This document shows positions 12,994 through 28,285 of a stretch of DNA of 64,000 nt, piece by piece (position 1 is the first letter of the stretch; each line of letters starts with the position of its first letter). Under the pieces are notes generated by a model. It searched no databases and was not told the DNA's origin. It saw nothing but the letters and a program-made list of their open reading frames with translations. Source of the stretch: Salipiger sp. CCB-MM3 (lineage in GTDB: Bacteria > Pseudomonadota > Alphaproteobacteria > Rhodobacterales > Rhodobacteraceae). The position numbers and the translations under genes were made by a program. Location: NCBI RefSeq assembly GCF_001687105.1, contig NZ_CP014596.1, positions 799,501-863,500 on the forward strand, written 5' to 3'.

Positions 12994-13838
12994 CTAGACC
13001 GCACCTCTGCCGATGTCGGCATAGATCAGCCCGTCGAAAGTCGGGTCTGCAAGGCCGCCAATAACCTCCCCCATCACGGGTTCAAAGATGCGGCTGGGTC
13101 CAGAACCTGCGGCAACCGCGCCATCCGCGCCAGGCGGCAACTGCAGTTCGTCGATGTAAGCTTGCGAAGCAATCTGCGTCGCGGCGATGATAACGCATTT
13201 GGCTACCCGCTCGATGGCCACCGACGCGCCGGCCGCCAGCACGTAACTCACGGCGCGCCGGCCTGAGAATAGCCCGAAGTGCGGCCAAGAAGAGAATTGG
13301 ATCTGGATGTCTTGTTGGTAGAGCTCGGCTCTCATCAGCGGGCGCAGGTTCTCGTTGCTGCGTAGGGTGCCCACGTTTCCGGCCGGGGTCTGGGCAACTG
13401 TCACATCATTGCCCGGCCCAGAAGCAAAGACATCCCACTCGCGGCCGGACGGCTTGGACTTGCAGCGCACCACAAGAGTTTCGCCATTCGGGTTGATTAC
13501 CCCTATGCCCATGAAGAGATCGTCGCCGTCCCGCTCGCTGACACCCAGCGACACTCTGATACCGACTTTGCGGGCCGCTTCTTCGACGCGGCGATGTTGC
13601 GGGCTGCCAAGCGTGCTTGACGTGGCCCGACAGCATACGATGAACGCTTTCCGATAGGCCGCATCGCCAAACCACAGAGGGAAGGATAACCGGGCATCCA
13701 AGTCTTCGGGAAACCGATTACATGGGCACCATTTGCGCCGGCTTCGGCGCCTACGGCAACGGTCTTGTCGACCGTTCCATCGAGGTCGAACCAGGCAGGT
13801 TCGGACTGTATGGCAGCAACGCGAAGCGTCTCGGGCAT
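12994..13838 (-). pseudogene. Decayed nitrilase
   Basis: A carbon-nitrogen hydrolase of the nitrilase type is readable in two frames. Frame one starts at ATG 13838 (MPETLRVAAIQSEP) and runs through FPKTWMPGYP; a single-base deletion near 13681-13686 then moves homology into the frame that reads SFPLWFGDAAY, VSLGVSERDGDDLFMG, GTLRSNENLRPL and IQFSSWPHF, ending at 12994. Catalytic positions are also lost: the Glu of FPETW is Lys, and the nucleophile Cys of the usual CWEHLQPL is Ser in RSNENLRPL; only the Lys (CKSKPS) survives. Frameshift plus active-site loss mark it as non-functional. It lies 3' of the Nit1 operon, which has its own intact nitrilase of a different branch. Confidence 0.85.
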
Positions 13839-13962
13839 GGCAAAAGGGCCATCTTTCGAGGCTGGGTTAGATGCAGCGAACAATGTCACCTGGACTTCCA
13901 ATCTGAAAGTAAGGGCCATTTGCTTCGGTCCGTTCTTGTCGGACCCGGCGGTGGCATCGTTC

Positions 13963-14721
13963 CTATCTGACCTCCGCGATCTGGGCGATTATGTGGCCGT
14001 CTTCGCGCGCCACGAGAGCTTCGGTACCGCTGCGCTGAACTTTGACGGTCTCGCCTTGATCGAGATTGCCCAGGTAGACGATTTCCCGGGCCCGGACGCC
14101 GTCAACGGTCTGCGCAGTGCTTTCGACAAGGCGGGTGAAGCTGACGAAGTAGAGCAGCCCGACAGCGTTGAAATCCAAGCTCGGATTCGGCGTGATCCCG
14201 ACTCCCTCCTCGACCCGCTGCCCCCGCAGCGTGCGCGAGACGCTCCTGGCTCGCGCATCCAACTCCTTCAGCGCGATCCCGGCCTCGGGCAGCACGCAAT
14301 CGCGCTCCGGCATCGCGCGCACGATCCGGCGATTGGAGGCGGTCTCGTCATGTGCGACGAAAGTCGACAGCATCAGCAGCGAGCCTATCACCTGTCTGCC
14401 CTGCCGGAACTCGTGGCGCGAGCCAATGCGCGTGCCACCCAAGCTGGCAAGGCGCGATCGGATGGTCAGATCGGCACCCAATAGACCCTGCGAGGGGGTC
14501 AGATCGATCCGCGTCGCGCAGAAGGCGGCGTAGATCGGAAGGCCATCGGCCGCGCGAAACCCGAAACTCTCCTGTCCCGACGCCCCCGAAAGCATCTGCC
14601 AATGGATGTCGCCGCAGAAGCCGAGCGCCCATGTTTCGGATAGCCCGTGCGGTGAAAGCTGCTGCATCCCGAGCCGCTGACGAGTCAGCACACCCACTCC
14701 TGTGGTTTCTGAGTCCAGCAT
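13963..14721 (-). CDS. LnmK/Pnap_2097-like (double hot-dog type) biosynthetic protein
   Basis: Protein of 252 residues, no signal or membrane segment. The N-terminal segment GMQQLSPHGLSETWALGFCG followed by DIHW resembles the start of LnmK-like proteins (hot-dog acyltransferase/decarboxylase relatives in polyketide and Pnap_2097-type biosynthetic clusters). The rest has hot-dog-like strands (RIGSRHEFRQGRQVIGSLLM, LDFNAVGLLYFVSFTRLVE). The assignment is from memory of motif style and moderate. Its ATG overlaps the flavin monooxygenase stop by one base (TGATG), so it belongs to the Nit1 operon as last gene. It suggests an acyl or malonyl-type step added to the Nit1 pathway. Confidence 0.55.
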   Translation of the reverse strand: MLDSETTGVGVLTRQRLGMQQLSPHGLSETWALGFCGDIHWQMLSGASGQESFGFRAADGLPIYAAFCATRIDLTPSQGLLGADLTIRSRLASLGGTRIGSRHEFRQGRQVIGSLLMLSTFVAHDETASNRRIVRAMPERDCVLPEAGIALKELDARARSVSRTLRGQRVEEGVGITPNPSLDFNAVGLLYFVSFTRLVESTAQTVDGVRAREIVYLGNLDQGETVKVQRSGTEALVAREDGHIIAQIAEVR

Positions 14722-16001
14722 CAGCCCGCCACCCGCTGCGCCACGCCAGCCAATTGTGCGGCGATCTGCTCGGCGAGGTGGTGGCTGTCTTCTTCGATGC
14801 CAAGGAAGCGTCCCGAGCCCCAAGTGTTCAGCCAGCCGAGGCCGATGAAATGCAGACCCGGGTGATCGGTCACGCCGCGGTCAAAGACGGGCTTGCCGCG
14901 GGCGTCGAAGACATCCGCCTCGATCCACGCATAATCGGGGCGAAAGCCGATGGCCCAGAGCACCGAGGTGATGCCCGCCTCGGCGAGGTCGATCTCGGTG
15001 CGTTCCGCTTCCGGCTCCCATAGCTTCTCGAAGGGCGGCTCCTCCGGCGCGTCGATGCCTTCACGGGCGATGTAAGCGTCGATCTGGGTGCGGATGCCGA
15101 CGTAGGAGCGATCGGCGTCGTCCAGGTTCTTCGTCAGATCGGGCAGGAACTTGACGGTTGTCCCGTCCATATCCGCCAGAGAGCCATAAAGCTCGACGCC
15201 TTGCTCGACGTGGAAACGGCGCAGGTCGATCTCTTTGCCGCCGTCGCGGCCCGACATGTAGTGGTTGGTCTGGGTCAGCGCCTTCACCGGGTCGGGGTGC
15301 TCGGCGATGGTGATCGCATAGTGCCCGGCGTCATAAAGCCAGTCGGTGGCATCACGGCCGCGATACTTGCGCGGGCTGCGCGGCGCGGGGCCGACGGCGA
15401 GGTGGACGTCGCGTCCGGCGCGGCAGAAATCCTCCATCAGTTGCACGCCCGACTGGCCGGTGCCGACGATGAGCACGCCGCCTTCGGGGAACTGATCGAC
15501 GTTGCGGTAGTCGACCGAGTGCATCTGGAATATCTCGGGCGAGAGGTTCTTGGCGTAGGGCGGCTCGATCGGCGTGTCGTAGCCGCCGGTGGCGATCACC
15601 ACCTGATCGCAAGTCCATGTGCCGATGGAGGTCTCGACAGTGAAGCCGCCCTGCGCGATCGGAGCCACGCGGGTCACTTCGACGTTCTCGCGCAGGTCGG
15701 GCTGCGCCATCGCGGCAAAGGCGTCGACGTAGTCGGTGATCTCGTCCCTGAGCATAAAGCCGCCCGGATCGGTGCCGCCATACTCGCGGTCATAGTGGAA
15801 ATCGGGCAGGCGGCACTGCCAGTTCGGGGTGACGAGGCAGAAGCTGTCCCAGCGGCTGTTGCGCCACGAATGAAACTTCTCGTGCCGCTCGAAGACGATG
15901 TTCTCGATCCCCTTCTTCTTGAGGCAGTAGGCGGTCGACAGGCCTGCCTGCCCGCCGCCGACGATCACCACGGGGATATGCGGGGTCTGAGTGTCTTTCA
16001 T
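14721..16001 (-). CDS. Nit1-cluster flavin-dependent oxidoreductase (MSMEG_0569 family)
   Basis: FAD/NADPH monooxygenase-like protein of about 426 residues. The FAD Rossmann motif VVIVGGGQAGLSTAYCLKKK is near the N-terminus; YHDREYGGTD-like text and a second dinucleotide fold GGVLIVGTGQSGVQL follow, with C-terminal GLGWLNTWGSGRFLG, as in the MSMEG_0569 family. It is the flavoprotein member of the Nit1 cluster, thought to act with nitrilase and radical SAM enzymes in an unresolved biosynthesis. Start is uncertain: ATG 16001 has GGAGA upstream, while ATG 16016 overlaps the preceding stop as ATGA. Confidence 0.88.
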   Translation of the reverse strand: MKDTQTPHIPVVIVGGGQAGLSTAYCLKKKGIENIVFERHEKFHSWRNSRWDSFCLVTPNWQCRLPDFHYDREYGGTDPGGFMLRDEITDYVDAFAAMAQPDLRENVEVTRVAPIAQGGFTVETSIGTWTCDQVVIATGGYDTPIEPPYAKNLSPEIFQMHSVDYRNVDQFPEGGVLIVGTGQSGVQLMEDFCRAGRDVHLAVGPAPRSPRKYRGRDATDWLYDAGHYAITIAEHPDPVKALTQTNHYMSGRDGGKEIDLRRFHVEQGVELYGSLADMDGTTVKFLPDLTKNLDDADRSYVGIRTQIDAYIAREGIDAPEEPPFEKLWEPEAERTEIDLAEAGITSVLWAIGFRPDYAWIEADVFDARGKPVFDRGVTDHPGLHFIGLGWLNTWGSGRFLGIEEDSHHLAEQIAAQLAGVAQRVAG

Positions 16002-16012
16002 CGTCTCCATCC

Positions 16013-16300
16013 TCATTGAGAGATGTGCAGGCAGGCGATTTCTGCGCCCTCCTGATCCTTGAATGTCGCGAGCTTGGCCTCGATCCGGTCGAGCTGATCC
16101 ATGGCCGAACTGCAGGCAAACCCATATTTGCGCTGCACCCGGTTCGAGGCGCGCTCCATGGCAATGCGGGCGCGTTGCAGGAAGTCGTCCGCCGGGTAGC
16201 TCTGGCCGGGCTCGAAGACCTCTGCGACGACGCTGGAGGGGGAGTAGAGCTTTTCCTCGGCGCCGTCGGGCCAACGGACGGTCCAGAATGTTTCAGGCAT
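16013..16300 (-). CDS. Small Nit1-cluster protein (MSMEG_0570 family)
   Basis: Protein of 95 residues matching the MSMEG_0570 nitrogen-starvation-response family: FWTVRWPDGAEEKLYSPSSV, a segment FEPGQSYPADDFLQRARIAM, and ASNRVQRKYGFACSSAMDQL near the C-terminus. No catalytic motif is evident; members occur only with Nit1 genes and may be a subunit or carrier. It starts within the last eight bases of the AIR-synthase-like gene, and its stop overlaps possible starts of the flavoprotein, so it is embedded in the operon. Confidence 0.85.
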   Translation of the reverse strand: MPETFWTVRWPDGAEEKLYSPSSVVAEVFEPGQSYPADDFLQRARIAMERASNRVQRKYGFACSSAMDQLDRIEAKLATFKDQEGAEIACLHISQ

Positions 16301-17261
16301 GGCAGGCTCCAAGATCGAGATAGGGGGTTTGGGCGTGGTCCCAGAAGAGCGCGCTTCCGGTTCCATCGCCGAGGGTCACGGCGGACCCGTCCGTGACGCG
16401 CCCGATGGCGCAGGCGTCGATGCCGCGCGCGCAAAAGCGGGCGCAGACGGCGTTGGCGTTTTCCGGCGCGACCGACAGCAGGAAGCCGAAGCTGGGGAAG
16501 CTGCGCAGCCAGCGCTCGGCGGCGATGCCGGGCGGCGGGACTAGGGCGGTGAGGTCGATGTCGATCCCGACGCTTGAGCATTCCGCCAGCATCAGCGCGG
16601 TGCCGATGATGCCGCCTTGGCTGATGTCCTTTCCGGCGCGGGTCAACTCGTCCTCGGCCAGCGTCGGCAGCAGGTCCAGATCGCGGCGCAGCCGGTCGGG
16701 CGGCGCGTCGAGCGCGGCGCAGAAATTGTCGAAGTTGCGGTAGCTGCCGCGATGGTCCACGGCGGCGATGAGCAGATCGCCGGGCGCGGCGTGAAAGCTG
16801 GTGATCAGCCGCTGCGCCTTGCCAAATACCGAGGCCGCGAGGCCTAGCGCCGGGGCGGAAAGGTTGGTGTGCCCGCCCACCAGCGGCACCCCATAGGCGG
16901 CGGAGGCGTCGCGCAGGCCCTGCAGCAGCGGGGCGGCGGCCTCGGCGCTTGGCGCCCAGACCTGATCGACCACGGCGGCGCTGCGTCCGCCCATGGCCGC
17001 GATGTCCGACAGGTTCACCATCACCGCGCACCAGCCCGCGAACCACGGATCGTCCTCGATGAAGGCGGGGATGAAGCCCTCGCCCGCCAGCAGGTCAAAG
17101 CCGCCGTCGCGGGGCAGGGCGGCGGCATCGTCGCCGGGGCGGCCGGCGCTGGCGGCACTGAGGCCGAGCGCCCGCGTCGCCCGCGCGATGCCCAGCTTCG
17201 AGCGGATCGAGGGGTGGTCGCGCAGCCGTCCGGCCAGCGCGTCTAGATCGCTCTCGGTCAT
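16293..17261 (-). CDS. AIR synthase-related protein of the Nit1 cluster (sll0787 family)
   Basis: PurM-like ATP-binding protein of 322 residues. The N-terminal ATP-grasp-like PurM fold is shown by GDDAAALP, VNLSDIAAMGGRSAAVVDQV, GVPLVGGHTNLSAP and KDISQGGIIGTALML, all typical of AIR-synthase and selenophosphate-synthetase relatives. It probably activates an amide or acyl group with ATP, as PurM does, but the Nit1 substrate is unknown. The start at 17261 overlaps the acetyltransferase stop as ATGA. An upstream in-frame extension of about 98 residues is an artefact of the neighbouring gene. Confidence 0.88.
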   Translation of the reverse strand: MTESDLDALAGRLRDHPSIRSKLGIARATRALGLSAASAGRPGDDAAALPRDGGFDLLAGEGFIPAFIEDDPWFAGWCAVMVNLSDIAAMGGRSAAVVDQVWAPSAEAAAPLLQGLRDASAAYGVPLVGGHTNLSAPALGLAASVFGKAQRLITSFHAAPGDLLIAAVDHRGSYRNFDNFCAALDAPPDRLRRDLDLLPTLAEDELTRAGKDISQGGIIGTALMLAECSSVGIDIDLTALVPPPGIAAERWLRSFPSFGFLLSVAPENANAVCARFCARGIDACAIGRVTDGSAVTLGDGTGSALFWDHAQTPYLDLGACHA

Positions 17262-17809
17262 CTGCGTGGCTCGCGGGTGCGGGGGCGGTGGTACCAGCCG
17301 GTGACCGGATCGGCACAGGGCGGGTAGTGGCTCAGGTCTGCCTCCATCTTCATGTGCGGGGTGCCGTGGATCGTCACCTCTTCCAGCGGGCGCCAGCGCA
17401 GCCGGCGGAAGAGCGTGACGTTCTGCATCTGCACATGCGCAAGAAAGCGGTCGCAGCCGCGCGCGTTGGCGGTGCAGACGGCAAGGCGGATCAGTTCGGC
17501 CCCGAGCCGCCCAACGGCGCGGAAATCGCTGTCCACCGCCAGCCGCGAGCCCCACCAGAGGCGCGGGGCCTCTTCGTGGATGCGCACCGTGCCGACCACC
17601 TGATCGGCCTCATGGGCGTAGGTCGAGAGCGCCACCAGATGCGTGGCGATAAGGTCGATGTCGTCGCGGTCGTGGGCGGGGAAAATGCCCTGCTCCTCGA
17701 CAAACACCCGGTGGCGCAGGCCCGCCGCGCCCTCGGCCTCGAAGCGTTTCGAGGCGGCGCGGATGTAATAGCCCGGGCTGCTGAACAGGCGCGGTTCAAG
17801 CTCGATCAT
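17258..17809 (-). CDS. GNAT N-acetyltransferase of the Nit1 cluster (MSMEG_0567/sll0786 family)
   Basis: GNAT-fold acetyltransferase of 183 residues. AAGLRHRVFVEEQGIFPAHD is the GNAT entry segment seen in this family; VGTVRIHEEAP and the acetyl-CoA region LGAELIRLAVCTANARGCDR follow. The C-terminal FRRLRWRPLEEVTIHGTPHM, with a conserved HMKMEADL tail, is characteristic of the Nit1 member. It overlaps both neighbours by four bases (ATGA), fixing it between the radical SAM and AIR-synthase-like genes. In mycobacteria the acetyltransferase and the PurM-like part are fused; here they are separate. Confidence 0.88.
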   Translation of the reverse strand: MIELEPRLFSSPGYYIRAASKRFEAEGAAGLRHRVFVEEQGIFPAHDRDDIDLIATHLVALSTYAHEADQVVGTVRIHEEAPRLWWGSRLAVDSDFRAVGRLGAELIRLAVCTANARGCDRFLAHVQMQNVTLFRRLRWRPLEEVTIHGTPHMKMEADLSHYPPCADPVTGWYHRPRTREPRR

Positions 17810-18927
17810 GCCGAAGCTCCCTCTGTGGGGACTTTCAGTTTCTCATAGCTCGACAGGGCCGAGCAGGCGCCACATTTGCCGCAGCCCGCCTTCATGTCCG
17901 CCGAGCGGATCCCGGCGTGGGCGATCATCTGGCCGAGCGGCTGCAGGATCGAGGCCATGAACTCGGACGACGGCGCCGGGTGGCTTTCCAGCGGCGTGCC
18001 CGAGATCGGCACGAAGGGCACGACGAAAGGATAGACCCCCATGGCGCAGAGCTTTTCGCCCATTTCAAGGATCGCCTCACGCGTGTCGCCAAGGCCGGCA
18101 AGGATGTAGGTCGAGACCTGCCCGCGCCCGAAGACCCTCACCGCCGCCTCGAAGCTGGCGAAGTATTTCTCCAGCGGCACCGAGGCTTTGCCGGGCATGA
18201 TGCGCGCGCGCACCTCGGGCGTGACCGCTTCGAGATGCATTCCCAGCGTGTCGATCCCGGCGTCATACATGCGCTGGTGCCACGCATCGTTCTCGGGCGG
18301 CTCGCATTGGCCTTGTAGCGGCAGATCGACGGCGGCCTTGATCGCCTCGGCGCTCTCGCAGAGCACCTTGGCGCCGCGGTCCTTGCCTGCCGGGGTGCCG
18401 GTCGTCAGCACCATATGGGTGACGCCGTCGAGGTCCACCGCCGCCTTGGCAACCTCGGCAAGCTGCGCGGGCGTCTTATGGGCGATGGTGCGGCCCGCCG
18501 CGAGGCTCTGACCGATCGAGCAGAACTGGCAGGTCTTCTTGCGGCTCTCGTAGCGGATGCAGGTCTGCAGCACCGTGGTCGCCAGCACGTCTTTGGAATG
18601 CAGCGCGGCGATGTGGCTGTAGGGAATGCCGTCCGCGGTCTTGAGTTGGTAGAACTTTGCGCGGGTCGGGAAGCGGACGGTCGCCACCTCGGCGCCGTCG
18701 CGGGTGACATGGGCCTCGCCGGTGTCGTCGGGGGCCGACACGAGATAGGGGCTGTCGAAGCTGGGCGCGGTGTGGACCGGGATCATCACCGTGCGCGCGC
18801 CGATGGTGATCGCCTTGTGGTCCGAGGGGCCCGCGCCGCCACGGCGGCTTTCCTGCCCGGCGCGGGGATCGACGAGGCGCATGCCGTGGGTCTGAAGCTC
18901 GTTGATGAGCTGGGCGTGATCAAGCAT
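17806..18927 (-). CDS. Nit1-cluster radical SAM protein (MSMEG_0568/sll0785 family)
   Basis: Radical SAM enzyme of 373 residues. The Fe-S ligands are not the classic CxxxCxxC but the family's longer spacing: Cys123 in TCIRYESR, then Cys133 and Cys136 in [21 protein letters not shown] and QCEPPEND follow in the barrel, as in biotin-synthase-like members. A further cluster-like [12 protein letters not shown] occurs near the C-terminus and may bind a second Fe-S centre. It starts eight bases before the nitrilase stop and ends in an ATGA with the acetyltransferase gene. The likely role is a carbon-skeleton or sulphur step on the nitrilase product; unproven for the family. Confidence 0.9.
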
Positions 18928-19918
18928 CGGGGCGGCCCTCCTCGGGCAGGGGTTCCGGCTCGGCCATAGAAGTGCTCATAGGCGCGGCCTCACAGGTGTG
19001 GCGGGTGACGGCGGGGCGGGTGTCATGCACCAGCGACAAAAGCTCGGGCCGTGCGTAATGGCCGACGCTGTCCATCATGCGCTTGCGCTTGGCCACGAGC
19101 TTCATGTCGAGATCGGCGATCAGGATGCCTTCGCCTTCGGTCAGCGGCTCGGCGAGGTGACGGCCCTCGGGCGAGATGATGCAGGTCATGCAGCCGCTGC
19201 GCATCGCTTTCTGCAGCTTCGGGTCGGGGTGGATCTGGGCGATCTGTTCTTCGGTCAGCCAGCCGGTGGAATTCACCACGAAGCAGCCCGACTCCAGCGC
19301 GTGGTGGCGCATGGTGACCTCGATCTGGTCGCGAAAGATGTCGCCCACGAGGCTGCCGGGGTAGTGGCCCGCGTGAATCTCTTCGTGCTGGGTCATCAGC
19401 GCGTAGCGGGCGAGCGGGTTGTAATGCTCCCAGCAGGCCAGCGCGCCGACGCGGCCCACCTTTGTGTCGACCACCTTGAGCCCGGCGCCATCGCCCTGAC
19501 CCCAGACCATGCGCTCATGGTAGGTGGGGGTGATCTTGCGCCGTTTCAGCGCCAGCGTGCCATCGGCGTCAAAGATGAGCTGGGTGTTGTAGAGCGAGCC
19601 ATGGTCGCGCTCGTTCACCCCCAGCACCACCACGACGCCACGCTTGCGGGCGGCATCGGCCACGGCCTGCGTCTCGGGCGAGGGGACAACCACGGCCTCC
19701 TGCATCAGTTCCAGATGCGGCGCGCCCTGCTGAACGGGCGGCAGCACGAAGCTGAAATAGGGGTAATAGGGCACGAAGGTCTCGGGGAAGACGATGAACT
19801 GCGCGCCTTTGCCCGCAGCCTCGGCAATCGCGTTGAGCACGCGTTCGATCGTGCCCGCGCGCCCGGAAAGGTCCGGGGCGATCTGGACGGCGGCGGCGCG
19901 GATGGTGTCGGTTCGCAT
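18920..19918 (-). CDS. Nit1-cluster nitrilase (Nit6803/sll0784 family)
   Basis: Intact nitrilase of 332 residues that hydrolyses a nitrile to the acid and ammonia. The catalytic triad is complete: Glu46 in [11 protein letters not shown], Lys128 in [19 protein letters not shown], and Cys162 in [15 protein letters not shown]. The [14 protein letters not shown] and CWEHYNPL variants are typical of the Nit6803-type enzymes of Nit1 clusters rather than plant- or rhodococcal-type nitrilases. The C-terminal 40 residues are Pro/Glu-rich and probably disordered. It is the second gene of the operon, after two hairpins, and overlaps the radical SAM start by eight bases. Confidence 0.95.
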
Positions 19919-19940
19919 GGGCTAGCCTTTGCAGACGTCG

Positions 19941-20003
19941 GAAAAAGGGGCCGGGCCGGGGAGCGGGCGGCCCGGCGTCCGGGGGCGGATGCATGCCCCC
20001 GGA
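19941..20003 (-). terminator. Double hairpin between first Nit1 gene and nitrilase (attenuator-like)
   Basis: Two perfect stems lie in the 94-base gap. TCCGGGGGC (19978-19986) pairs with GCCCCCGGA (19995-20003). CCGGGCC (19951-19957) pairs with GGCCCGG (19969-19975) and on the minus strand is followed by CCCCTTTTT. This looks like an intrinsic terminator inside the operon, allowing the first gene to be made in excess over the enzymes. Confidence 0.65.
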
Positions 20004-20012
20004 CAGGAGGGA

Positions 20013-20495
20013 TCACACGGTCCAGGTGTCGAGGATCACCGCATTGGCCTTCTTGTGCAGCAGGATGCAGTCGAGCACGTCCTGCGGTGCGATGGGGGTG
20101 ATGCCGGGCAGCAGCGAGGGCTCGCCGTGGCCGTAGAGCGCCTGCAGCGCGAAGCGGCAGGCGTAGACCTTGCCGCCTTCGCCCATAAACTTGTTGAGGT
20201 TCACCGCGAAGTTCTGGTGGCCGGGGAAGGCCTCGTCGCCGAGCGTCGGGAAACCGCGCTGGATGCCGAGGGTCACGCCGGGGCCGTAGAGCAGGATCGA
20301 CGTCTCATAGCCTTTGCGATTGAGGCGGATTGCATTGAGAATGTTGACGAGGCCGATCGAGCCTTCGAAGGCGACGGTATGGAAGGTCACAAGCGCCTTC
20401 TCGCCTTCGTCGGCCTTCACATCTTCGAAGACCTTTTCTTCATAGTTGACGAAAAAGTCTCCGTCCTTGTGTGCTTCTTTGGTAACCTGAGGCAT
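20013..20495 (-). CDS. Nit1-cluster DsrE-like protein (MSMEG_0572/sll0783 family)
   Basis: Protein of 160 residues with a DsrE/DsrF-like fold: [40 protein letters not shown], and a cysteine in [15 protein letters not shown], where sulphur-relay relatives carry the active Cys. Members are called nitrogen-starvation-response proteins and are the first gene of most Nit1 clusters. ATG 20495 follows AAGGAGGGC at ideal spacing; an upstream codon at 20549 adds 18 unconserved residues. It is the promoter-proximal gene and is separated from the nitrilase by terminator-like hairpins. Confidence 0.88.
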
Positions 20496-20763
20496 CTTGC
20501 CCTCCTTGTCGCTGCGTGGAGACAGGATGCTGGGCAGCAAATGATTCACTCAATGAGCAGTTCAATGTGCATACAATAATAATGACAATAAACATGCATT
20601 CCGCGTAATCTTTAGACGAAGTTTTGAGCTTTCGCTGGTTCGGCAGGCAATGTCTGTCTGAAACCGTGGCGCGCAGGGCTCAGGTTTTGCGTAGATGCAT
20701 ACAATTGCCCTTCAATTCCGAGAATCGATCCGCTAAGGCTGGGTCGAACAGGAGTTGAAGCAG
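20496..20763. promoter_or_regulatory. Divergent Nit1/MocR promoter region with TGCATACAAT direct repeats
   Basis: The 268 bases between the first Nit1 gene and the MocR gene are AT-rich around 20560-20600. TGCATACAAT occurs twice in the same orientation, at 20568-20577 and 20696-20705. MocR regulators are known to bind direct repeats near divergent promoters, so these are good operator candidates. Confidence 0.55.
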
Positions 20764-22131
20764 ATGATTGACTGGTCTCCCCAGCTGACCGACAGCGGCA
20801 AGCCGCGCTACCTTGCCATCGCCGATGCGATCGCCCGCGATATCGAGCAGGGGCTCTTGGGCAGTGGTGACCGGTTGCCACCGCAGCGGCGGCTCGCCGC
20901 CAGTCTCGGCATCGACTTCACCACCGTCTCGCGCGCCTATGCCGAGGCGCAGGCGCGCGGTCTGGTCGACAGCCATGTGGGCCGCGGCACCTTCGTGGCC
21001 GAGCGTGCCGCCGCGCCCGCCGCTGACCCCGAGCGCAAGCGCGCCGAGGATTTGTCGATGAACATGCCGCCTGAGCCCACAGATCCGGAGCTCGTGGGGC
21101 GTATGAAGGGCGGGCTCGACTATGTCTCGGCCAATCTCATCGACCTTCTGCGCTACCAATCGCCCATTGGATCCGAGCGTGACCGTACCGCCGCCTCGAG
21201 CTGGCTGAGCATGCGCGGCATGGTGCCCTCGTTGGAGCGCATCGCGGTGACGCCGGGCGCTCATGCAACCATGGCGGCGATCCTGTCGATCATCACCAAG
21301 CCCGGCGACACGGTGCTTTGCGAGCGTGTCACCTATCCCGGCATCCGCAATATCGCGGCGCGCTTCGGCGTGACGCTGGTCGGGCTGGATATGGACGCGC
21401 AGGGCGTGACGCCCGAGGCGTTGAGCGCCGCCATCGCCGAGCATCGGCCCAAGGCGCTTTACCTCAATCCGACGCTGCAGAACCCCACTACGCTGACCAT
21501 CCCGGTCGAGCGGCGGCTGGCGCTGGCCGAGGTGCTGCGGTCCGAGGGGCTGACGCTGATCGAGGATGACGCCTATGGCTTCATCCCCGCCAAGTCCCCA
21601 GCGCCCATCGCGCTCTCGGCACCCGACCTGACGTGGCACATTGGCGGGCTGGCGAAATGCATCGGCGCGGGGCTGCGGCTGGCGTTCACCATCGCACCGT
21701 CGCCGCGCTGCGCCTTCCGGCTGGCGCAGGCGATCCGGGCGCTGTCGGTGATGCCCTCGCCGCTGTCGATGGCGCTGACCACGCAGTGGATCGAGGATGG
21801 CACCGCCGACGGCATCCGCCGCTTTATCCGCGCCGAAAGCGCCGCGCGGCAGGCCATCGCGCGCGAGGCGCTGGAGGGGACGGAGTTCACCGCCGCAGAG
21901 AATGCCTTCAACATCTGGCTGACCCTGCCCAAGGGCGCGGGCCGCGCCGATATCGTCGCGCGCATGGCCGGGCGGCAGCTTGGGGTCATGCCCTCTGACG
22001 CTTTCACCGTCGCGGGCGCACCGGGCGAGAAGCTGCGGGTCTGTCTGGGCGGTTCTGTCACCCGCGAGGCGCTGCGCGAGAACCTCTACTTCCTCGGCAA
22101 CACGCTGGCGCCCAACGCCTTCATGGGGTGA
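20764..22131 (+). CDS. MocR family regulator (GntR winged helix fused to aminotransferase domain)
   Basis: Regulator of 455 residues. Residues 1-80 are a GntR winged helix (DAIARDIEQGLLGSGDRLPP, TTVSRAYAEAQARGLV, HVGRGTFVAE). The rest is an aminotransferase class I domain with PLP-binding hallmarks: NPTLQNPTT, EDDAYGFIP at about 267-275 and the Schiff-base lysine Lys298 in GGLAKCIGAG. The ATG at 20764 has AGGAG nine bases upstream. It diverges from the Nit1 operon and is its likely regulator, sensing an amino compound or PLP itself. Nit1 loci usually lack a linked MocR in my recollection, so the pairing is of interest. Confidence 0.92.
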   Translation: MIDWSPQLTDSGKPRYLAIADAIARDIEQGLLGSGDRLPPQRRLAASLGIDFTTVSRAYAEAQARGLVDSHVGRGTFVAERAAAPAADPERKRAEDLSMNMPPEPTDPELVGRMKGGLDYVSANLIDLLRYQSPIGSERDRTAASSWLSMRGMVPSLERIAVTPGAHATMAAILSIITKPGDTVLCERVTYPGIRNIAARFGVTLVGLDMDAQGVTPEALSAAIAEHRPKALYLNPTLQNPTTLTIPVERRLALAEVLRSEGLTLIEDDAYGFIPAKSPAPIALSAPDLTWHIGGLAKCIGAGLRLAFTIAPSPRCAFRLAQAIRALSVMPSPLSMALTTQWIEDGTADGIRRFIRAESAARQAIAREALEGTEFTAAENAFNIWLTLPKGAGRADIVARMAGRQLGVMPSDAFTVAGAPGEKLRVCLGGSVTREALRENLYFLGNTLAPNAFMG

Positions 22132-22433
22132 TTTAGGCTTCCTAGAAGCCATGGAGAGCTTTCGGCCACTGGAGGCGATAAATGCGTTTTTGACCTGAGG
22201 TGATCTGTTTCGGGCGCAACTGCAGGCAGGAAAATGTAGTGGAGCTTGGTGCCGCGCGAAAGCACCGGACCAACGAAGGTCGGCTTAAAGTCCGACAATC
22301 AAATCAGCGACAATACAGCGCGAATTGAAAAGCAGGCGGAAGCCCTGTCATCTGGGGGCGTATTGCATTGCCGAACTATGGAATAGGGAGTTCGGGTCTG
22401 GCCTGCTGGCATCGCCGAAGGGTTAATCTCTTC
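22132..22433. other. Gene-free gap between convergent genes
   Basis: About 300 bases between the MocR stop and the 2-hydroxyacid dehydrogenase stop. No gene, repeat or strong hairpin is visible. Confidence 0.4.
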
Positions 22434-23396
22434 TCAGGGCACACGATTTTTCAAGGATTGACCTCTTGCCAGGCGATCGACGTTGCGCGCCATTGCCTGC
22501 TGCCTCCGGGTGATCGTCCCGTTGGTCCAGCCTGACATGTGCGGCGTCAGTGTCACGTTGTCGAGGTCGTGAAACGGTTTGTGCCCCGGCATTGGGTTCG
22601 GCTGATCGGGTGTCGGATAGACGTACCACGTGTCGATGATCGCGCCACCGATCCTTCTGGTCGAGAGCACCTCGAAGAGCGCGTCCTCGTCGATGACCGG
22701 ACCGCGGCCGACGTTCATCACGATGGCCTCTGCTCCCAATGCGTTTAGGACGTCTGCGCCGATGATCCCTGCGGTCCCGTCGCTCAGCGGCAGCGTGTTG
22801 ATCAGAACATCGATGTGCGATGCCATTTCCGTCAGGTCCGCAAGGCCATAAGTGGCCGCATAGTCCGGGGTGGAGACCGGTGAGCGGTTCGCCACATGTA
22901 CCGTCATGCCGAAGGCAAGAGCTCGCGCCGCAAGCGTGCGGCCGATGTGTCCGTGCCCGACGATGCCGATGCTCTGCGCGCCAAGTTCGGTTCGCAGGCC
23001 CGAGGGGCCGCCGGCCCAGTAGTGCCAGTCGCCCTGTCGGAGTTGCCGGTCGGCCTCGGCCAGCGGGACGTGCCGCGCGAGCAGCGCCGCCATGACGTAT
23101 TCGGCGATGGCATTCTCATGACCGAAGCAGTTGCAGACCGCGCAGCCCTCAGGGAGAGAAGGGAAATGCACGCCGTCATAGCCCGCCGCCGGAAGCTGGA
23201 AGAGCTTGGCCGAGGTCGGCGGGTACTCGGCGCGGCTGTGGGTGCCGACAATGATTTCGGCGGTCTGGTAGTGCTCGAGGTCTCCTGCTCCATCGAACGT
23301 GTCCGACACTGTGACGAGCTCATGCGGGGTCTCCAGGAGCGTTTCGAAGCCTTCGAAAAAGGTGAGTGCATTGGCGCCGTGGAAAACGATCTTCAT
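22434..23396 (-). CDS. D-2-hydroxyacid dehydrogenase (NAD-dependent)
   Basis: Oxidoreductase of 320 residues in the D-isomer 2-hydroxyacid dehydrogenase family. The Rossmann motif GIVGHGHIGRT is at about 144-154; catalytic Arg231 lies in MNVGRGPVIDE, and His286 in TPHMSGWTNG. The HMSGWT variant and N-terminal FHGANALTFFEGFETL differ from phosphoglycerate dehydrogenase and are nearer to the formate dehydrogenase/phosphonate dehydrogenase branch. It is the last gene of the aldonate-type operon, 36 bases after dctM, and could reduce a keto-acid product. The substrate is not determinable. Confidence 0.85.
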   Translation of the reverse strand: MKIVFHGANALTFFEGFETLLETPHELVTVSDTFDGAGDLEHYQTAEIIVGTHSRAEYPPTSAKLFQLPAAGYDGVHFPSLPEGCAVCNCFGHENAIAEYVMAALLARHVPLAEADRQLRQGDWHYWAGGPSGLRTELGAQSIGIVGHGHIGRTLAARALAFGMTVHVANRSPVSTPDYAATYGLADLTEMASHIDVLINTLPLSDGTAGIIGADVLNALGAEAIVMNVGRGPVIDEDALFEVLSTRRIGGAIIDTWYVYPTPDQPNPMPGHKPFHDLDNVTLTPHMSGWTNGTITRRQQAMARNVDRLARGQSLKNRVP

Positions 23397-23432
23397 GTGA
23401 TCCGTACCTGTTTCAGTGTCGGTCGAAGCCCA

Positions 23433-24749
23433 TCAGTAGACGGCGATCTGCGGAAAGCAGAGCATCATAGCGAGCGCGAAAGCCTGAAGCCCGATAAAGG
23501 GGAGCAGGGCGCGGAAGATGTCCCCGAGCGAGATCTCGGGCGGCGCGACAGACTTCAGGTAGAAGGCGGCAGGCCCGAAGGGCGGAGACAGGAAGCTCAT
23601 CTGCATGTTCATGCAGAACAGCACGCCGAACCAGATCGGGTCGAGCCCGAGGCTCGTGACGATGGGCACGAAGATCGGCATGGTCAGCAGCGCGATCCCG
23701 ACCCAGTCTAGGAAGGCCCCGAGGGCAAAGAGGATCGCCATCATCAGCAGAACGATCACGATCGGGTTGTCCGAGACACCGGTGATCAGCCCAGCGACGA
23801 AATTAATGCCGCCCATGAGGTTGTATACGCCGACGAGGGCCGTGGCACCGATCCCGATCCAGACGATCATGCCGCAGGTGGAGAGGGTCTGCATTGCGCT
23901 TTCACGCAGGAACTTCCAGGTGAACTCGCCGCGGATCACGGCAGAGAGCGCGACCCCTGCCACGCCGACCGCCGAGGCTTCGGTCACAGAGGCAATACCG
24001 GCGTAGATCGAGCCCAAAACGAAAGTCACCACGAGCAGCGGAAGGATCAGCCCCTTGAGCAGGCGCAGTTTTTCTGCAGATGGGATCTTCTCGTTGGTGG
24101 GGGGCGGCGCCACGCCTTCCGAGAAGTAGGATCGCAGCAGCACGTAGCCCACGTAGAGCGAGGCCAGCATCAGGCCGGGCACGAAGGACGCGGTGAACAG
24201 ATCGCCGATCGAGACGTTGGCGGTCAAACCGTACATGATCAGCACGATCGAGGGCGGGATCATGGCACCCAGCGAGCCGCCGGCGCAGACGACACCGATC
24301 GCAAGATTTCGATCATAGCCAAGCCGCAGCATCTGGGGCAGGGCGATCAGGCCGAGCAACACGATCTCGCCGCCGATGATGCCCGACATGGCTGCGAGGA
24401 TCACCGACACGAAGATGGTCTGCACGGCGACCCCGCCGCGGATCCGGCCACCGATCAGCTTCATCGCGTCGAACAGGTCGCGGGCGACGCCGGATCGGTC
24501 GAGCATCGCTGCCATCAGCACGAACATAGGCACCGAGACGAAGATGAAACTGTTGACGAAGGTGTAAATCCGGCTCGTGATCACGGTGATCGACAGCGGG
24601 CCGAAGAAGCCGAGCGCAAAGACTAGCGAGACGAGCAGCGTGACGAAGGCCAGCGGCATGCCGGTCAGCAGCAGCACCACCATGAGACCGAACATGAGGA
24701 GGGTTGCGGGCCCGATGCCGAGCGCCGCCAGATCGAACATGGCTTGCAT
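23433..24749 (-). CDS. dctM: TRAP transporter large permease (DctM)
   Basis: Inner-membrane large subunit of a tripartite ATP-independent periplasmic importer, 438 residues with about twelve hydrophobic segments. Family hallmarks are GLMVVLLLTGMPLAFVTLL, SVPMFVLMAAMLDRSGVARD, GGSLGAMIPPSIVLIMYG, and the C-terminal SFLSPPFGPAAFYLK. ATG 24749 follows AGGA and lies at the dctQ stop; a longer upstream frame is not supported. It works with DctQ and DctP encoded just upstream. Confidence 0.93.
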   Translation of the reverse strand: MQAMFDLAALGIGPATLLMFGLMVVLLLTGMPLAFVTLLVSLVFALGFFGPLSITVITSRIYTFVNSFIFVSVPMFVLMAAMLDRSGVARDLFDAMKLIGGRIRGGVAVQTIFVSVILAAMSGIIGGEIVLLGLIALPQMLRLGYDRNLAIGVVCAGGSLGAMIPPSIVLIMYGLTANVSIGDLFTASFVPGLMLASLYVGYVLLRSYFSEGVAPPPTNEKIPSAEKLRLLKGLILPLLVVTFVLGSIYAGIASVTEASAVGVAGVALSAVIRGEFTWKFLRESAMQTLSTCGMIVWIGIGATALVGVYNLMGGINFVAGLITGVSDNPIVIVLLMMAILFALGAFLDWVGIALLTMPIFVPIVTSLGLDPIWFGVLFCMNMQMSFLSPPFGPAAFYLKSVAPPEISLGDIFRALLPFIGLQAFALAMMLCFPQIAVY

Positions 24750-24750
24750 G

Positions 24751-25341
24751 TCAGATGTCCTTTGCAGGCTTTTTGAGCTGCTTGACGACAATCACCGCGA
24801 ACTGGGCGCACATGACAAGCATTAGAACAAAAAGGAATATCTTGAGGTAAGCGGGCAGCGGCGGGTTCCAGGCGCTGCCGGAGCGTTCGAGGCGCAGATC
24901 GCCCATCGGCGACCATACCGCCTTGCTGAGCATCAGCCACGCCGCATAGGCAAAGAACCCGCTGGCAATCATCGAGGCCAGTGATGTGAAGATGTCGAGC
25001 GCCTTTCGGGCCCGCGCTGGGAGGGCGTCGTAGATCAGGACCACCCGGATGTGCCGGTCGCGCGACACGCAGAACAGCCCGCCGTAGAGAAACGCCAGAC
25101 CGCAGAGGAAGGTCGCGGTCTCATGCGCCCAGATCGTCGGGGCGTTCAGCGCATACCGCAGGAAGACCTCCATCAGCAGGAAGACCGCCGCCGCCACGAT
25201 CCCGACCGCGAATATAAAGCCCAATCGGTCGATGGCACGGCCGAGCAGCCCCGCCTCGGGGATCGGCTCTTCTCGTGTCTCATGGGTCGGTAACTCGGAG
25301 GTGTGCTCGTGTTCCGAGGGGGCGCTATCAGGTCTGCTCAT
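24751..25341 (-). CDS. dctQ: TRAP transporter small permease (DctQ)
   Basis: Small membrane subunit of the TRAP importer, 196 residues with four hydrophobic segments. After a polar N-terminal tail of about 35 residues come AVGIVAAAVFLLMEVFLRYA, the conserved WAHETATFLCGLAFLYGGLF, and RDRHIRVVLI. ATG 25341 has GGAGG eight bases upstream; a codon six bases earlier is too close to it. The gene ends one base before dctM. Confidence 0.9.
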   Translation of the reverse strand: MSRPDSAPSEHEHTSELPTHETREEPIPEAGLLGRAIDRLGFIFAVGIVAAAVFLLMEVFLRYALNAPTIWAHETATFLCGLAFLYGGLFCVSRDRHIRVVLIYDALPARARKALDIFTSLASMIASGFFAYAAWLMLSKAVWSPMGDLRLERSGSAWNPPLPAYLKIFLFVLMLVMCAQFAVIVVKQLKKPAKDI

Positions 25342-25374
25342 CAACATGTCCTCCGTCAGATTGGTATGCAGGAA

Positions 25375-25398
25375 GGCCGGCGACCCGTGCCGCCGGCC
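25375..25398 (-). terminator. Intra-operon hairpin after dctP
   Basis: GGCCGGCG (25375-25382) pairs perfectly with CGCCGGCC (25391-25398), in the gap between the dctP stop and dctQ start. No T-run follows, so it more likely stabilises the dctP message or partly attenuates than fully terminates. Confidence 0.45.
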
Positions 25399-25407
25399 TC
25401 CACGGGC

Positions 25408-26421
25408 TTACTGGAGGAGGCCCTTGTCGGTGAGATAGGCGGTCAGCGTGTCGAAGACCTTCTTCGCCATCGGCGAGCCCTCGGCGACGGTCGCCCATTC
25501 GTTCTGCGCGATGGCGCGGAACTTGGCGCGTTCCTCGTCGGACCAGTTGTGGATGGTGATGCCCTCGGCCTCAGCGGTTTCAACCGCCTCGAGATCACGC
25601 TCTTTCAGCGTGTTCACCTGGGTCTGCTGGAATTCCTTCACCGAGGCCTTGAGCTGCTCCTGGATTTCCGGCGGCAGCGCGTCCCACTTGGCCTTGTTCA
25701 TCGAAACCTCGACCAGCGGCAGCGAGTGGAAGCCGGGATAGACCGGATGCGGCGCGATCTCGTTCATGCCGGTCTCTTGGTTCACCGAAAAGACCGAGTA
25801 GTCGGCGGCGTCGATGACGCTCTTGTCGAGCGAGGTGTAGACCTCGGAGGCGGGCAGGTTCACCGGGTTTGCGCCGGCGGCGGCGAAGACGTTGGCAATC
25901 AGCCCCTCGGGCGAGCGAACCTTGACGCCCTGCAGGTCGGCGACGCTGTCGAGCGGCACCTTCGAGACAAAGGCTTCGAGGCCCGGGGTGGAGACGCCGA
26001 TGAACTCGAGCCCATAAGGATTGATCAGCTCGTTCATCAGCTCCTTGCCGCCACCGTTTTCGACGAAGTCGATCATCTGCTCGGGATCGGACCATGCGCC
26101 GACAGGGTTGGCGATGAGGCCGAAGGCCGGGTCACGACCGGCGAAATAGGAGGTGTCGGTGATATGGCCATCGATGATCCCGGCGGCGATCGCGTCAGGC
26201 GTTTCCTTGTAGTCGACGATCGAACCCACCGGCAGCAGCTCGATGCTAACCTTGCCGTCGGTCATCTCTTTGACCGTTTCCGTCCAGCCCTGCTGGAAGA
26301 TGAAGTTCGGGTTGCCGGCCGGGTCCGAGGACTGGAAGCGGAAACTGTATTCCTGTGCCGAGGCGGCGCCGGAGAGGCAGAGGCCGGCAAGCAGGGCTGC
26401 GGTGGTTGTCTTCAGGATCAT
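25408..26421 (-). CDS. dctP: TRAP transporter solute-binding protein (DctP)
   Basis: Periplasmic receptor of 337 residues with a signal peptide of about 21 residues (MILKTTTAALLAGLCLSGAA, then SAQEYS). YSFRFQSSDPAGNPNFIFQQ and the later LQGVKVRSPEG, VYTSLDKSVIDAADYS and VNQETGMNEIAPH segments follow the DctP pattern, including the invariant Arg (KVRSPEG) that grips a carboxylate. The ligand is thus an organic acid; gene context (sugar-acid enzymes) points to an aldonate. ATG 26421 has GGAGGAG seven bases upstream. Confidence 0.92.
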   Translation of the reverse strand: MILKTTTAALLAGLCLSGAASAQEYSFRFQSSDPAGNPNFIFQQGWTETVKEMTDGKVSIELLPVGSIVDYKETPDAIAAGIIDGHITDTSYFAGRDPAFGLIANPVGAWSDPEQMIDFVENGGGKELMNELINPYGLEFIGVSTPGLEAFVSKVPLDSVADLQGVKVRSPEGLIANVFAAAGANPVNLPASEVYTSLDKSVIDAADYSVFSVNQETGMNEIAPHPVYPGFHSLPLVEVSMNKAKWDALPPEIQEQLKASVKEFQQTQVNTLKERDLEAVETAEAEGITIHNWSDEERAKFRAIAQNEWATVAEGSPMAKKVFDTLTAYLTDKGLLQ

Positions 26422-26474
26422 CGTGGGCTCCTCCCTTGGGGTTCCTGTTTCAACTGCAATGGGTTGTGTGCGGG

Positions 26475-27518
26475 TCAAGGCGCTGGGAAGCTGATTTGCA
26501 CCTTCATTGCACGGGTTTTGTCAGTGGCTAAATCGAAGGCGCTAACCGCCTCTTCAGCAGGCAGCACCTTGGTGAGCAGCGGTCGCAGATCGAAGCGACC
26601 GGCGTCGATCATCCGGGCCGCTGTCGCGAACTCCGGCGCGAAGCGGAAGCTGCCGACGATCTGCAATTCGCGGGTCACGATCGCACTCATTGGCAAGTTG
26701 GTTTCGGGGCCGAGGCCAACGGTGACCAGCATTCCGCGGGGGCGCAGGAAGGTGCAGGCAGCGACCACGGCGGGCGGAGCGCCGGAACATTCGAAGGCGA
26801 CATCGACCTGACCCTTGGCGGTGCCCAGGGACGCAAGTGCATCCGAGCCCTGCGATAGGTCAATTGTGTGGTCTGCGCCCATCTGCTTGGCGGCGCTCAG
26901 AGCAGTGGCCGAAATGTCGGTGGCGATGATCTCTTCGGCGCCCGCGTGGCGGGCCGCAGCGATGGTCAGGCATCCGATCGGGCCGCAGCCGGAGACAACC
27001 ACCCGCTTGCCGATCAGGCTGCCGGCGAGACGTACTGCGTGCAGACACACAGCCAAAGGCTCGGACATGGCGGCCAGCGCCAGATCCGCGTTCGGCGACA
27101 GCTGTACCAACTGCGCTGCCGGCACGGTGACCTGCGCTCGGAAGAGGCCCTGCTCGTGCGGAAACCGCATGGCCGAGCCGTTGAAGCGCATGTCGAGGCA
27201 ATGGTTGGCCAGCCCGCGCAGGCAGTATTCGCAAGCGCCGCAGGGCCGCGAGGGGTTCACCGCCACGCGGTCGCCCTCGGCCAACCCAGTCACGCCACTG
27301 CCAATCTCGGTGACGATGCCCGACACCTCGTGCCCCAACGCCATCGGCTCGCGCACCCGCACGGAGCCGAAACCACCGTGATGGTAATAGTGCAGATCCG
27401 AGCCGCAGATCCCGCCGTGGCTGATTGCGACGCGCACTTCGCCCGCTGCGGGGGCAGGGGCCGAGGCAATCTCGTCGACACGGAGGTCTTTTGGGGCATG
27501 AATGACGATGGCACGCAT
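26475..27518 (-). CDS. Zinc alcohol dehydrogenase, L-idonate 5-dehydrogenase-like
   Basis: Medium-chain dehydrogenase of 347 residues. Catalytic zinc ligands Cys38 (GGICGSDLHYY) and His63 (ALGHEVSG) and the structural-zinc cysteines 93, 96, 99 and 107 (RPCGACEYCLRGLANHCLDM) are all present. GCGPIGCLTIAAARHAGAEE gives the NAD(P) fold. SDLHYYHHGGFG is typical of L-idonate 5-dehydrogenase. ATG 27518 overlaps the SDR stop by one base. With the dehydratase and SDR it would interconvert hexonates and keto-hexonates. Confidence 0.88.
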   Translation of the reverse strand: MRAIVIHAPKDLRVDEIASAPAPAAGEVRVAISHGGICGSDLHYYHHGGFGSVRVREPMALGHEVSGIVTEIGSGVTGLAEGDRVAVNPSRPCGACEYCLRGLANHCLDMRFNGSAMRFPHEQGLFRAQVTVPAAQLVQLSPNADLALAAMSEPLAVCLHAVRLAGSLIGKRVVVSGCGPIGCLTIAAARHAGAEEIIATDISATALSAAKQMGADHTIDLSQGSDALASLGTAKGQVDVAFECSGAPPAVVAACTFLRPRGMLVTVGLGPETNLPMSAIVTRELQIVGSFRFAPEFATAARMIDAGRFDLRPLLTKVLPAEEAVSAFDLATDKTRAMKVQISFPAP

Positions 27519-28285
27519 CACAGCACCGAGCTCATGCCGCCATCAGCGAAGATCAGCTGCCCCGAGACGTAGTTCGAGGCATCCGAGGCGAGGAAGATGG
27601 CGAGCCCAGCGAGCTCTTCGGGCTTGCCCCAGCGGCGCATCGGCGTGCGCCCCTTGACCCAGGCGTCGAAATCAGGGTTCGACACCAGCGCCTCGTTCAT
27701 GTCGGTAAGCATGTAGCCGGGCGCGATGGCGTTCGATTGAATGCCCAACTCGCCCCATTCAGCGGCCATCGCCTTGGTCAGCATCTTGATGCCGCCCTTG
27801 GCCACCGTGTAGGGCGCGACGGTCGCGCGGGCGAGGTCAGAGGTCAGCGAGCCGATATTGATCACCTTTCCGGAGCCGCGCTGCGCCATGCGTTTTGCCG
27901 CCTCGCGGCCGATGACGAAGGCCGAGGTCAGGTTGACGTCGATGACCCGCTGCCAGTCGGCGGTGTCGAGCTCGAGCATCGGCTTGCGGAACTGGATCCC
28001 GGCGTTGTTCACCAGGATGTCGATCTCGAGCCCTTCAGCATCGAAGCGGTCGAAAGCGGTGCAGATGGCCGTCTCGTCGGTCACGTCGAAGCAAGCACCC
28101 TCGGCGGTGAAGCCAGCGGCGCGCATCTCGTCCACGGCCTGCGCAAGGCGGGCCTCGTTCGAACCGTTCAGCACCACCTTGGCACCACAAGCGGCCAGCC
28201 CCTCGGCCATGGCGCGGCCGAGGCCCCGCGACGAGCCGGTGATCAGCGCCGTGCGCCCGGTGAGGTCGAAAAGTTTCAGGCTCAT
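27518..28285 (-). CDS. SDR oxidoreductase, gluconate 5-dehydrogenase-like
   Basis: Classical short-chain dehydrogenase of 255 residues. NAD(P) motif TGSSRGLG at about 16-23, NNAG at 93-96, catalytic Ser146 (NIGSLTSDLAR), Tyr159 and Lys163 (APYTVAKGGI) are intact. PFDLTGRTALITGSSRGLG-type starts and NIGSL are common in gluconate 5-dehydrogenases. It overlaps the upstream dehydratase by four bases (ATGA) and the downstream dehydrogenase by one, so all three are coupled. Confidence 0.9.
   Translation of the reverse strand: MSLKLFDLTGRTALITGSSRGLGRAMAEGLAACGAKVVLNGSNEARLAQAVDEMRAAGFTAEGACFDVTDETAICTAFDRFDAEGLEIDILVNNAGIQFRKPMLELDTADWQRVIDVNLTSAFVIGREAAKRMAQRGSGKVINIGSLTSDLARATVAPYTVAKGGIKMLTKAMAAEWGELGIQSNAIAPGYMLTDMNEALVSNPDFDAWVKGRTPMRRWGKPEELAGLAIFLASDASNYVSGQLIFADGGMSSVL

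Follow-up and report, generated by a model that had tools for sequence, protein, structure and literature searches.

An eight-gene variant of the Nit1 cluster with an LnmK-like last gene, carried in two copies by Salipiger sp. CCB-MM3

The Nit1C cluster, which is widespread in bacteria, was described by Podar et al. in 2005 (PMC1199592) as seven genes; the sections of that paper on the cluster report no conservation outside them and, at that date, experimental evidence for no cluster gene in a known transformation. PMC11049912 and PMC8567248, citing Estepa 2012 and Jones 2018, state in the relevant passages that Pseudomonas requires Nit1C for growth on cyanide, that the cluster there has the sigma-54 regulator NitA, and that a MocR protein acts on the separate cio/nit4 cluster. 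The discussion of cyanobacterial Nit1C in PMC9716671 treats it, by inference, as a route of cyanide or nitrile assimilation. Here we describe a variant of this cluster, extended by a gene related to that of the leinamycin acyltransferase/decarboxylase LnmK, in a 64,000-bp stretch (the window; contig NZ_CP014596.1, 799501-863500; G000:C2:799501-863500) of the 5.52-Mb genome of Salipiger sp. CCB-MM3. An earlier note on this DNA held that Nit1 products are not defined; this needs correction, as it omits the cyanide-growth requirement reported in the two Pseudomonas sources. We found no open-licence paper naming both LnmK and Nit1C.

The locus holds an eight-gene version of the Nit1 (Nit1C) cluster, together with a MocR-type regulator that belongs to it. 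Eight open reading frames (ORFs), all on the minus strand, were confirmed at 13963..20495 of the window. All seven Nit1C families occur together, each above its curated NCBIfam cut-off, and the locus keeps the gene order by which Nit1C is recognised, in which six genes follow each other on the same strand with little spacing. The features are as follows.

20755..22131, plus strand: MocR-type regulator, GntR and aminotransferase-like domains (Pfam GntR 57 bits, Aminotran_1_2 56 bits)
20696..20705, plus strand: putative operator half, TGCATACAAT, direct repeat, 128 bp spacing
20568..20577, plus strand: putative operator half, TGCATACAAT, direct repeat
20013..20495, minus strand: MSMEG_0572/Sll0783 family protein (TIGR04044 284 bits, cut-off 110)
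18920..19918, minus strand: Nit6803-type nitrilase (TIGR04048 557 bits, cut-off 503)
17806..18927, minus strand: radical SAM protein, MSMEG_0568 family (TIGR04043 596 bits, cut-off 304)
17258..17809, minus strand: GNAT, MSMEG_0567 family (TIGR04045 219 bits, cut-off 68)
16293..17261, minus strand: AIR-synthase-like protein (TIGR04049 423 bits, cut-off 321)
16013..16300, minus strand: MSMEG_0570 family small protein (TIGR04042 121 bits, cut-off 80)
14721..16010, minus strand: MSMEG_0569 family flavoprotein (TIGR04046 581 bits, cut-off 498; alternative start 16001)
14719..14723, minus strand: TGATG stop-start overlap of the flavoprotein and eighth genes, also the sharp edge of the duplicated stretch described below
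13963..14721, minus strand: eighth gene (the tail), Pnap_2097/LnmK family, 252 aa, A type (TIGR04099, TIGR04098)

The earlier note had read a complete Nit1 cluster with overlaps at most junctions, a TGATG-coupled last gene and an LnmK/Pnap_2097-like last product, and the analysis bears it out on each point. Overlaps of 8, 4, 4, 8 and 1 base occur at five of the seven junctions; the other two have gaps of 94 bases (MSMEG_0572-nitrilase) and 2 bases (MSMEG_0570-flavoprotein, with the ATG at 16010 as start). The TGATG lies at 14723-14719, and in a hidden Markov model search the eighth protein scores 200 bits against TIGR04099 (cut-off 125) and 181 bits against TIGR04098 (cut-off 100). The GNAT also matches the Pfam FeeM-like model (PF21926 FeeM, 35.7 bits, cut-off 27).

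The eighth gene is not local to this genome. It marks a lineage variant of Nit1: five of the six tail-bearing genomes in a phylum-wide sample have it beside Nit1, yet 14 of the 19 Nit1 genomes of that sample are without it. The sample held 397 genomes, with MSMEG_0572 over its cut-off in 19 and TIGR04099 in 6; in five of these six, MSMEG_0572 lies on the same contig within about 9 kb. Besides the window genome, the tail ends the Nit1 cluster in G356, G372, G406 and G615, all of the same class as the window genome; the flavoprotein gene is shifted inward in G615, and the tail was not found in the Nit1 regions of the 14 genomes. In each of these four clusters, MSMEG_0570 is preceded by a gap of about 1.2 kb, at the position where the 2005 account of Nit1C places a glycosyltransferase in some species (PMC1199592).

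When titled genome records were scanned with six Nit1-linked tails, 64 loci were obtained, and 56 of them carry all seven Nit1 genes and the tail in a single order; such queries favour Nit1-linked tails, and these fractions describe that clade only. The complete loci span several families, and 55 of the 56 have the regulator. The remaining eight comprise four contig-edge matches (L072, L104, L113, L114), a short contig on which three core genes precede the match (L090), a decayed cluster (L112), a fragment (L115) and a solitary gene (L061). In the decayed cluster, from Pararhodobacter marinus, the regulator is followed by an MSMEG_0572 remnant running into the tail gene, and the other core genes were not found there. 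Poseidonocella sp. HB161398 (L082) has the seven core genes and the tail, with no regulator match in the 4 kb before the first gene. The closest tail among named genomes, at 99%, is that of Alloyangia pacifica KcN7-14, whose contig is syntenic with the window (96.9-98.6% over three aligned parts).

Within the window genome's own family (248 genomes), the Nit1 flavoprotein exceeds the TIGR04046 cut-off in 9 genomes and TIGR04099 is exceeded in 8. The two genes are adjacent in six genomes, twice in the window genome and with the tail cut by a contig end in G226; three of the nine Nit1 genomes (G212, G239, G144) have no eighth gene at that place. A divergent TIGR04099-type gene lies elsewhere in G144, and a TIGR04099 gene is also present in G175, where no Nit1 flavoprotein exceeds the cut-off. 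G031 was rejected as a tenth Nit1 genome (flavoprotein 494.5 against 498.35; no other core gene in the surrounding 19.9 kb). The last gene is thus both LnmK-like and conserved with Nit1, the two points on which the earlier note had staked its claim.

The same genome carries a second Nit1 cluster (copy 2, L003) about 184 kb from the window cluster; it, the regulator and the putative operator are additions to the earlier note. Window 14719-22131 and L003 10688-18124 are 97.1% identical over 7437 bp, a stretch that covers the regulator and the seven core genes and is about 97% identical in a mosaic manner; near-identity ends at the ATG of the tail and at the stop of the regulator. The eighth proteins, however, share only about 40% of residues. 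In a three-way alignment with A. pacifica, whose single tail over the family cut-off is of A type, core identities were 97.4% (window-copy 2), 97.0% (window-A. pacifica) and 97.2% (copy 2-A. pacifica), against tail identities of 58%, 99% and 58%. Informative sites in the same order of pairing numbered 114, 85 and 97 in the core and 1, 295 and 1 in the tail. Like core sites were grouped, forming 153 runs where shuffling gave a mean of 197 and none of 5000 shuffles so low a number. Recombination between the copies or with relatives may have left this pattern; uneven mutation can also produce clusters. A simple recent duplication of the whole eight-gene cluster was rejected, as the tails agree at 58% of bases against 97% for the core and the trees conflict.

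Trees were built from rows selected among the loci (24 for the tail, 26 for the regulator). The tail of the window falls among the A-type tails and that of copy 2 among the B-type tails (100/99 each), whereas all three regulators (window, copy 2, A. pacifica) belong to a B-type set (97/97), apart from those of other A-type clusters. Approximately unbiased tests rejected a single A-set clade in the regulator tree (p 2.9e-5) and a clade of window, A. pacifica and copy 2 in the tail tree (p 8.3e-5), values weakened by the fact that the A set was named after the concatenated core tree had been seen. Because A and B types are not cleanly resolved in the concatenated core tree, core genes were discarded as a guide to tail type, and the conflict is drawn from the regulator and tail trees. 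The joining of an A-type tail to a B-type regulator that these two trees indicate probably predates the split between the window strain and A. pacifica.

The copy-2 tail ends 11 bases from a gene read from its translation as cbbR, beside a Calvin-cycle operon likewise read from translations (L003:1-9884). A. pacifica has the cbb operon up to about the end of its LysR regulator, without a Nit1 match there. Related genes read as transporters lie beside the copy-2 regulator (L003:18233-19528), beside the tail of Pseudooceanicola nanhaiensis (L227:10431-11668) and, unlinked, at window 41779-42873; they possibly encode exporters of a Nit1 product.

The conserved unit includes, beyond the eight genes, the divergent MocR-type regulator. 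Its start lies 259 bases from the first cluster gene. Of the 18 other Nit1 genomes in the phylum sample, 17 have a tblastn homologue divergently beside MSMEG_0572. The TGCATACAAT pair also stands between the regulator and first gene of copy 2, and from this position we infer that the regulator binds the paired sites. The word occurs four times in the genome, twice before each Nit1 cluster (reversed-pattern control, 0), so both clusters are probably co-regulated. Among unique regulator-MSMEG_0572 intergenic regions (window, copy 2, family loci and titled-record loci), CATACAAT was found in 62 of 62 and at least twice in 50 of them, where first-order random resampling gave 1.1 and 0.02; the word had been picked after the window and 21 of these regions had been seen. 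The putative operator is lineage-specific, because ATACAA occurs in just 6 of 17 intergenic regions of the phylum sample. Each of 17 other genomes has 3 to 12 copies of the shorter word GCATACAAT, so a small regulon holds for this genome and the ten-base word only.

The predicted model of the eighth protein (pLDDT, the predicted local distance difference test score, 93) has a double-hot-dog fold, and its best PDB match is LnmK (4hzn). LnmK is also the best sequence match in a profile search (E 3.6e-13). The Pfam LnmK_N_HDF model stays below its gathering score (22.5 against 26.5 bits). Tyr64 aligns with the LnmK tyrosine in an alignment to 4hzo/6x7l. The tyrosine at this column is invariant (60 of 60). 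In LnmK it stands at position 62. Across 49 eighth-protein sequences, 26 columns are invariant; over 58 clusters the tail changes fastest, with a mean pairwise identity of 42.8% against 57-87% for the other parts.

Further LnmK-like sequences were also observed. A. pacifica encodes an LnmK-like protein of 110 bits, under the cut-off, in which Met replaces the conserved tyrosine (L139, C2:397813-398565). In G478, one open frame joins a hexapeptide transferase, a phosphopantetheine-binding domain and an LnmK-like part (L144:688-2115), and in G144 a hexapeptide-transferase/LnmK-like fusion lies near RPA- and ParA-type plasmid genes and a sulfotransferase (L044:8105-10492).

The most likely role of the eighth enzyme is to transfer an acyl group to a compound that Nit1 makes or handles. 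The best explanation of the whole, which we advance tentatively, is LnmK-like acyl transfer onto a Nit1 compound by jointly switched clusters that give two acyl versions. The MocR-type regulator would bind the paired TGCATACAAT sites and switch the two clusters jointly, possibly in response to an amine-type signal. Like LnmK, the eighth enzyme would use its Tyr64 to take a short acyl group from a coenzyme A (CoA) thioester, with or without decarboxylation, and would hand it to an acceptor; the FeeM-like GNAT could then place it on an amine made or handled by the core. Since the eighth gene alone differs strongly between the copies, one Nit1 compound would be made in two acyl versions in the same cell. 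A broader reading, which we regard as doubtful, makes Nit1 a biosynthetic core whose product is diversified by exchangeable acyl-transferring tails, the core and regulator being held uniform through recombination and the two co-regulated clusters yielding, in one cell, two acyl variants of an undescribed nitrogen compound.

The main weakness of acyl transfer is the missing carrier protein, which weighs against it: none was found in 56 downstream stretches searched with the carrier domain of L144 as the only query. By eye, we recognised no polyketide synthase, carrier protein or beta-alkylation genes beside either copy, and no downstream gene of these types was shared among the loci compared. 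A conserved ninth gene was not found either, among ORFs of at least 100 aa at 55 loci (the top neighbour group, in 17 loci, resembles a generic ATP-binding cassette ATPase) or among ORFs of at least 50 aa within 4 kb downstream at 56 loci (largest group, 9).

The cluster might instead serve the use of cyanide or nitrile nitrogen, with the eighth gene in an auxiliary role, such as making or recycling the carbon acceptor of cyanide, and not in tailoring a secretable product. The reported need for Nit1C during growth of Pseudomonas on cyanide (PMC11049912, PMC8567248) speaks for this, as do the NCBI names of MSMEG_0572, MSMEG_0570 and the GNAT, which link them to nitrogen starvation; however, the Pseudomonas clusters are described in the passages concerned as nitA and nitBCDEFGH, without such a gene, and two copies with strongly different tails poorly fit one fixed auxiliary step. 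We consider it rather unlikely.

It is likewise rather unlikely that the eighth protein is a thioesterase that hydrolyses an acyl-CoA or acyl-acyl carrier protein (ACP) used or formed by the cluster and does not transfer the acyl group. Acyl-ACP thioesterases of the FatA/FatB type match it by fold, at an identity of about 7-14%, but LnmK is the better match by both fold and sequence, no thioesterase appears among the profile-search matches up to E 10, and the LnmK-type tyrosine is invariant. Moreover, two residues past the Asn of the D-x-N motif, where plant acyl-ACP thioesterases carry a catalytic His, the residue is V or A in the eighth proteins and V in LnmK. That the gene is a hitchhiker kept beside Nit1 by chance is barely credible: it is not found in 14 of 19 Nit1 genomes of the phylum sample and is not at that place in three of nine of its own family, but the full cluster in one order in 56 of 64 relatives from several families, the phylum-sample adjacency, outer genes that are not widely shared and the 26 invariant columns speak against it, and chance association was rejected on the first two of these.

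Downstream of the eighth gene, window 12994-13919 holds the remnant of a nitrilase-type gene in two overlapping frames (CN_hydrolase 26.7 bits, one piece); both frames recur in A. pacifica (L054 10803-11695). On the other side, window 22178-28510, with a 2-hydroxyacid dehydrogenase and genes read as a tripartite ATP-independent periplasmic (TRAP)-type transporter, breaks synteny with the A. pacifica contig.

Nit1 chemistry beyond the nitrilase has been open since 2005 (PMC1199592), and the later sources link the cluster with the use of cyanide. Since the added enzyme belongs to a mechanistic class that has been characterised, it offers a handle on that chemistry: strains with tail A, tail B or no tail can be compared for an acyl difference in the product, if one exists; the natural two-copy strain provides an internal comparison, and the four-copy putative operator a defined way into what switches the cluster on.

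Compared with known systems, the eighth protein differs from FatA/FatB-type thioesterases in its low identity and the lack of any listed sequence match. It resembles LnmK (4hzn, 6x7l) in its modelled double-hot-dog fold, the aligned tyrosine and the D-x-N...GLLYF motif; however, it is only 22% identical, and neither a carrier protein nor a widely conserved neighbour was found beside its gene. It belongs to the TIGR04099 Pnap_2097 family, four other class-level members of which (283-308 bits) also adjoin Nit1, although the two copies here, at 200 and 171 bits, are divergent members. The cluster itself has all seven genes in the known order of Nit1C (PMC1199592; Pseudomonas nitBCDEFGH). Unlike Nit1C of Pseudomonas as described in the passages cited, it carries an eighth, Pnap_2097/LnmK-type gene and a divergent MocR-type regulator in place of the sigma-54 regulator NitA, and it is present in two copies in this one genome.
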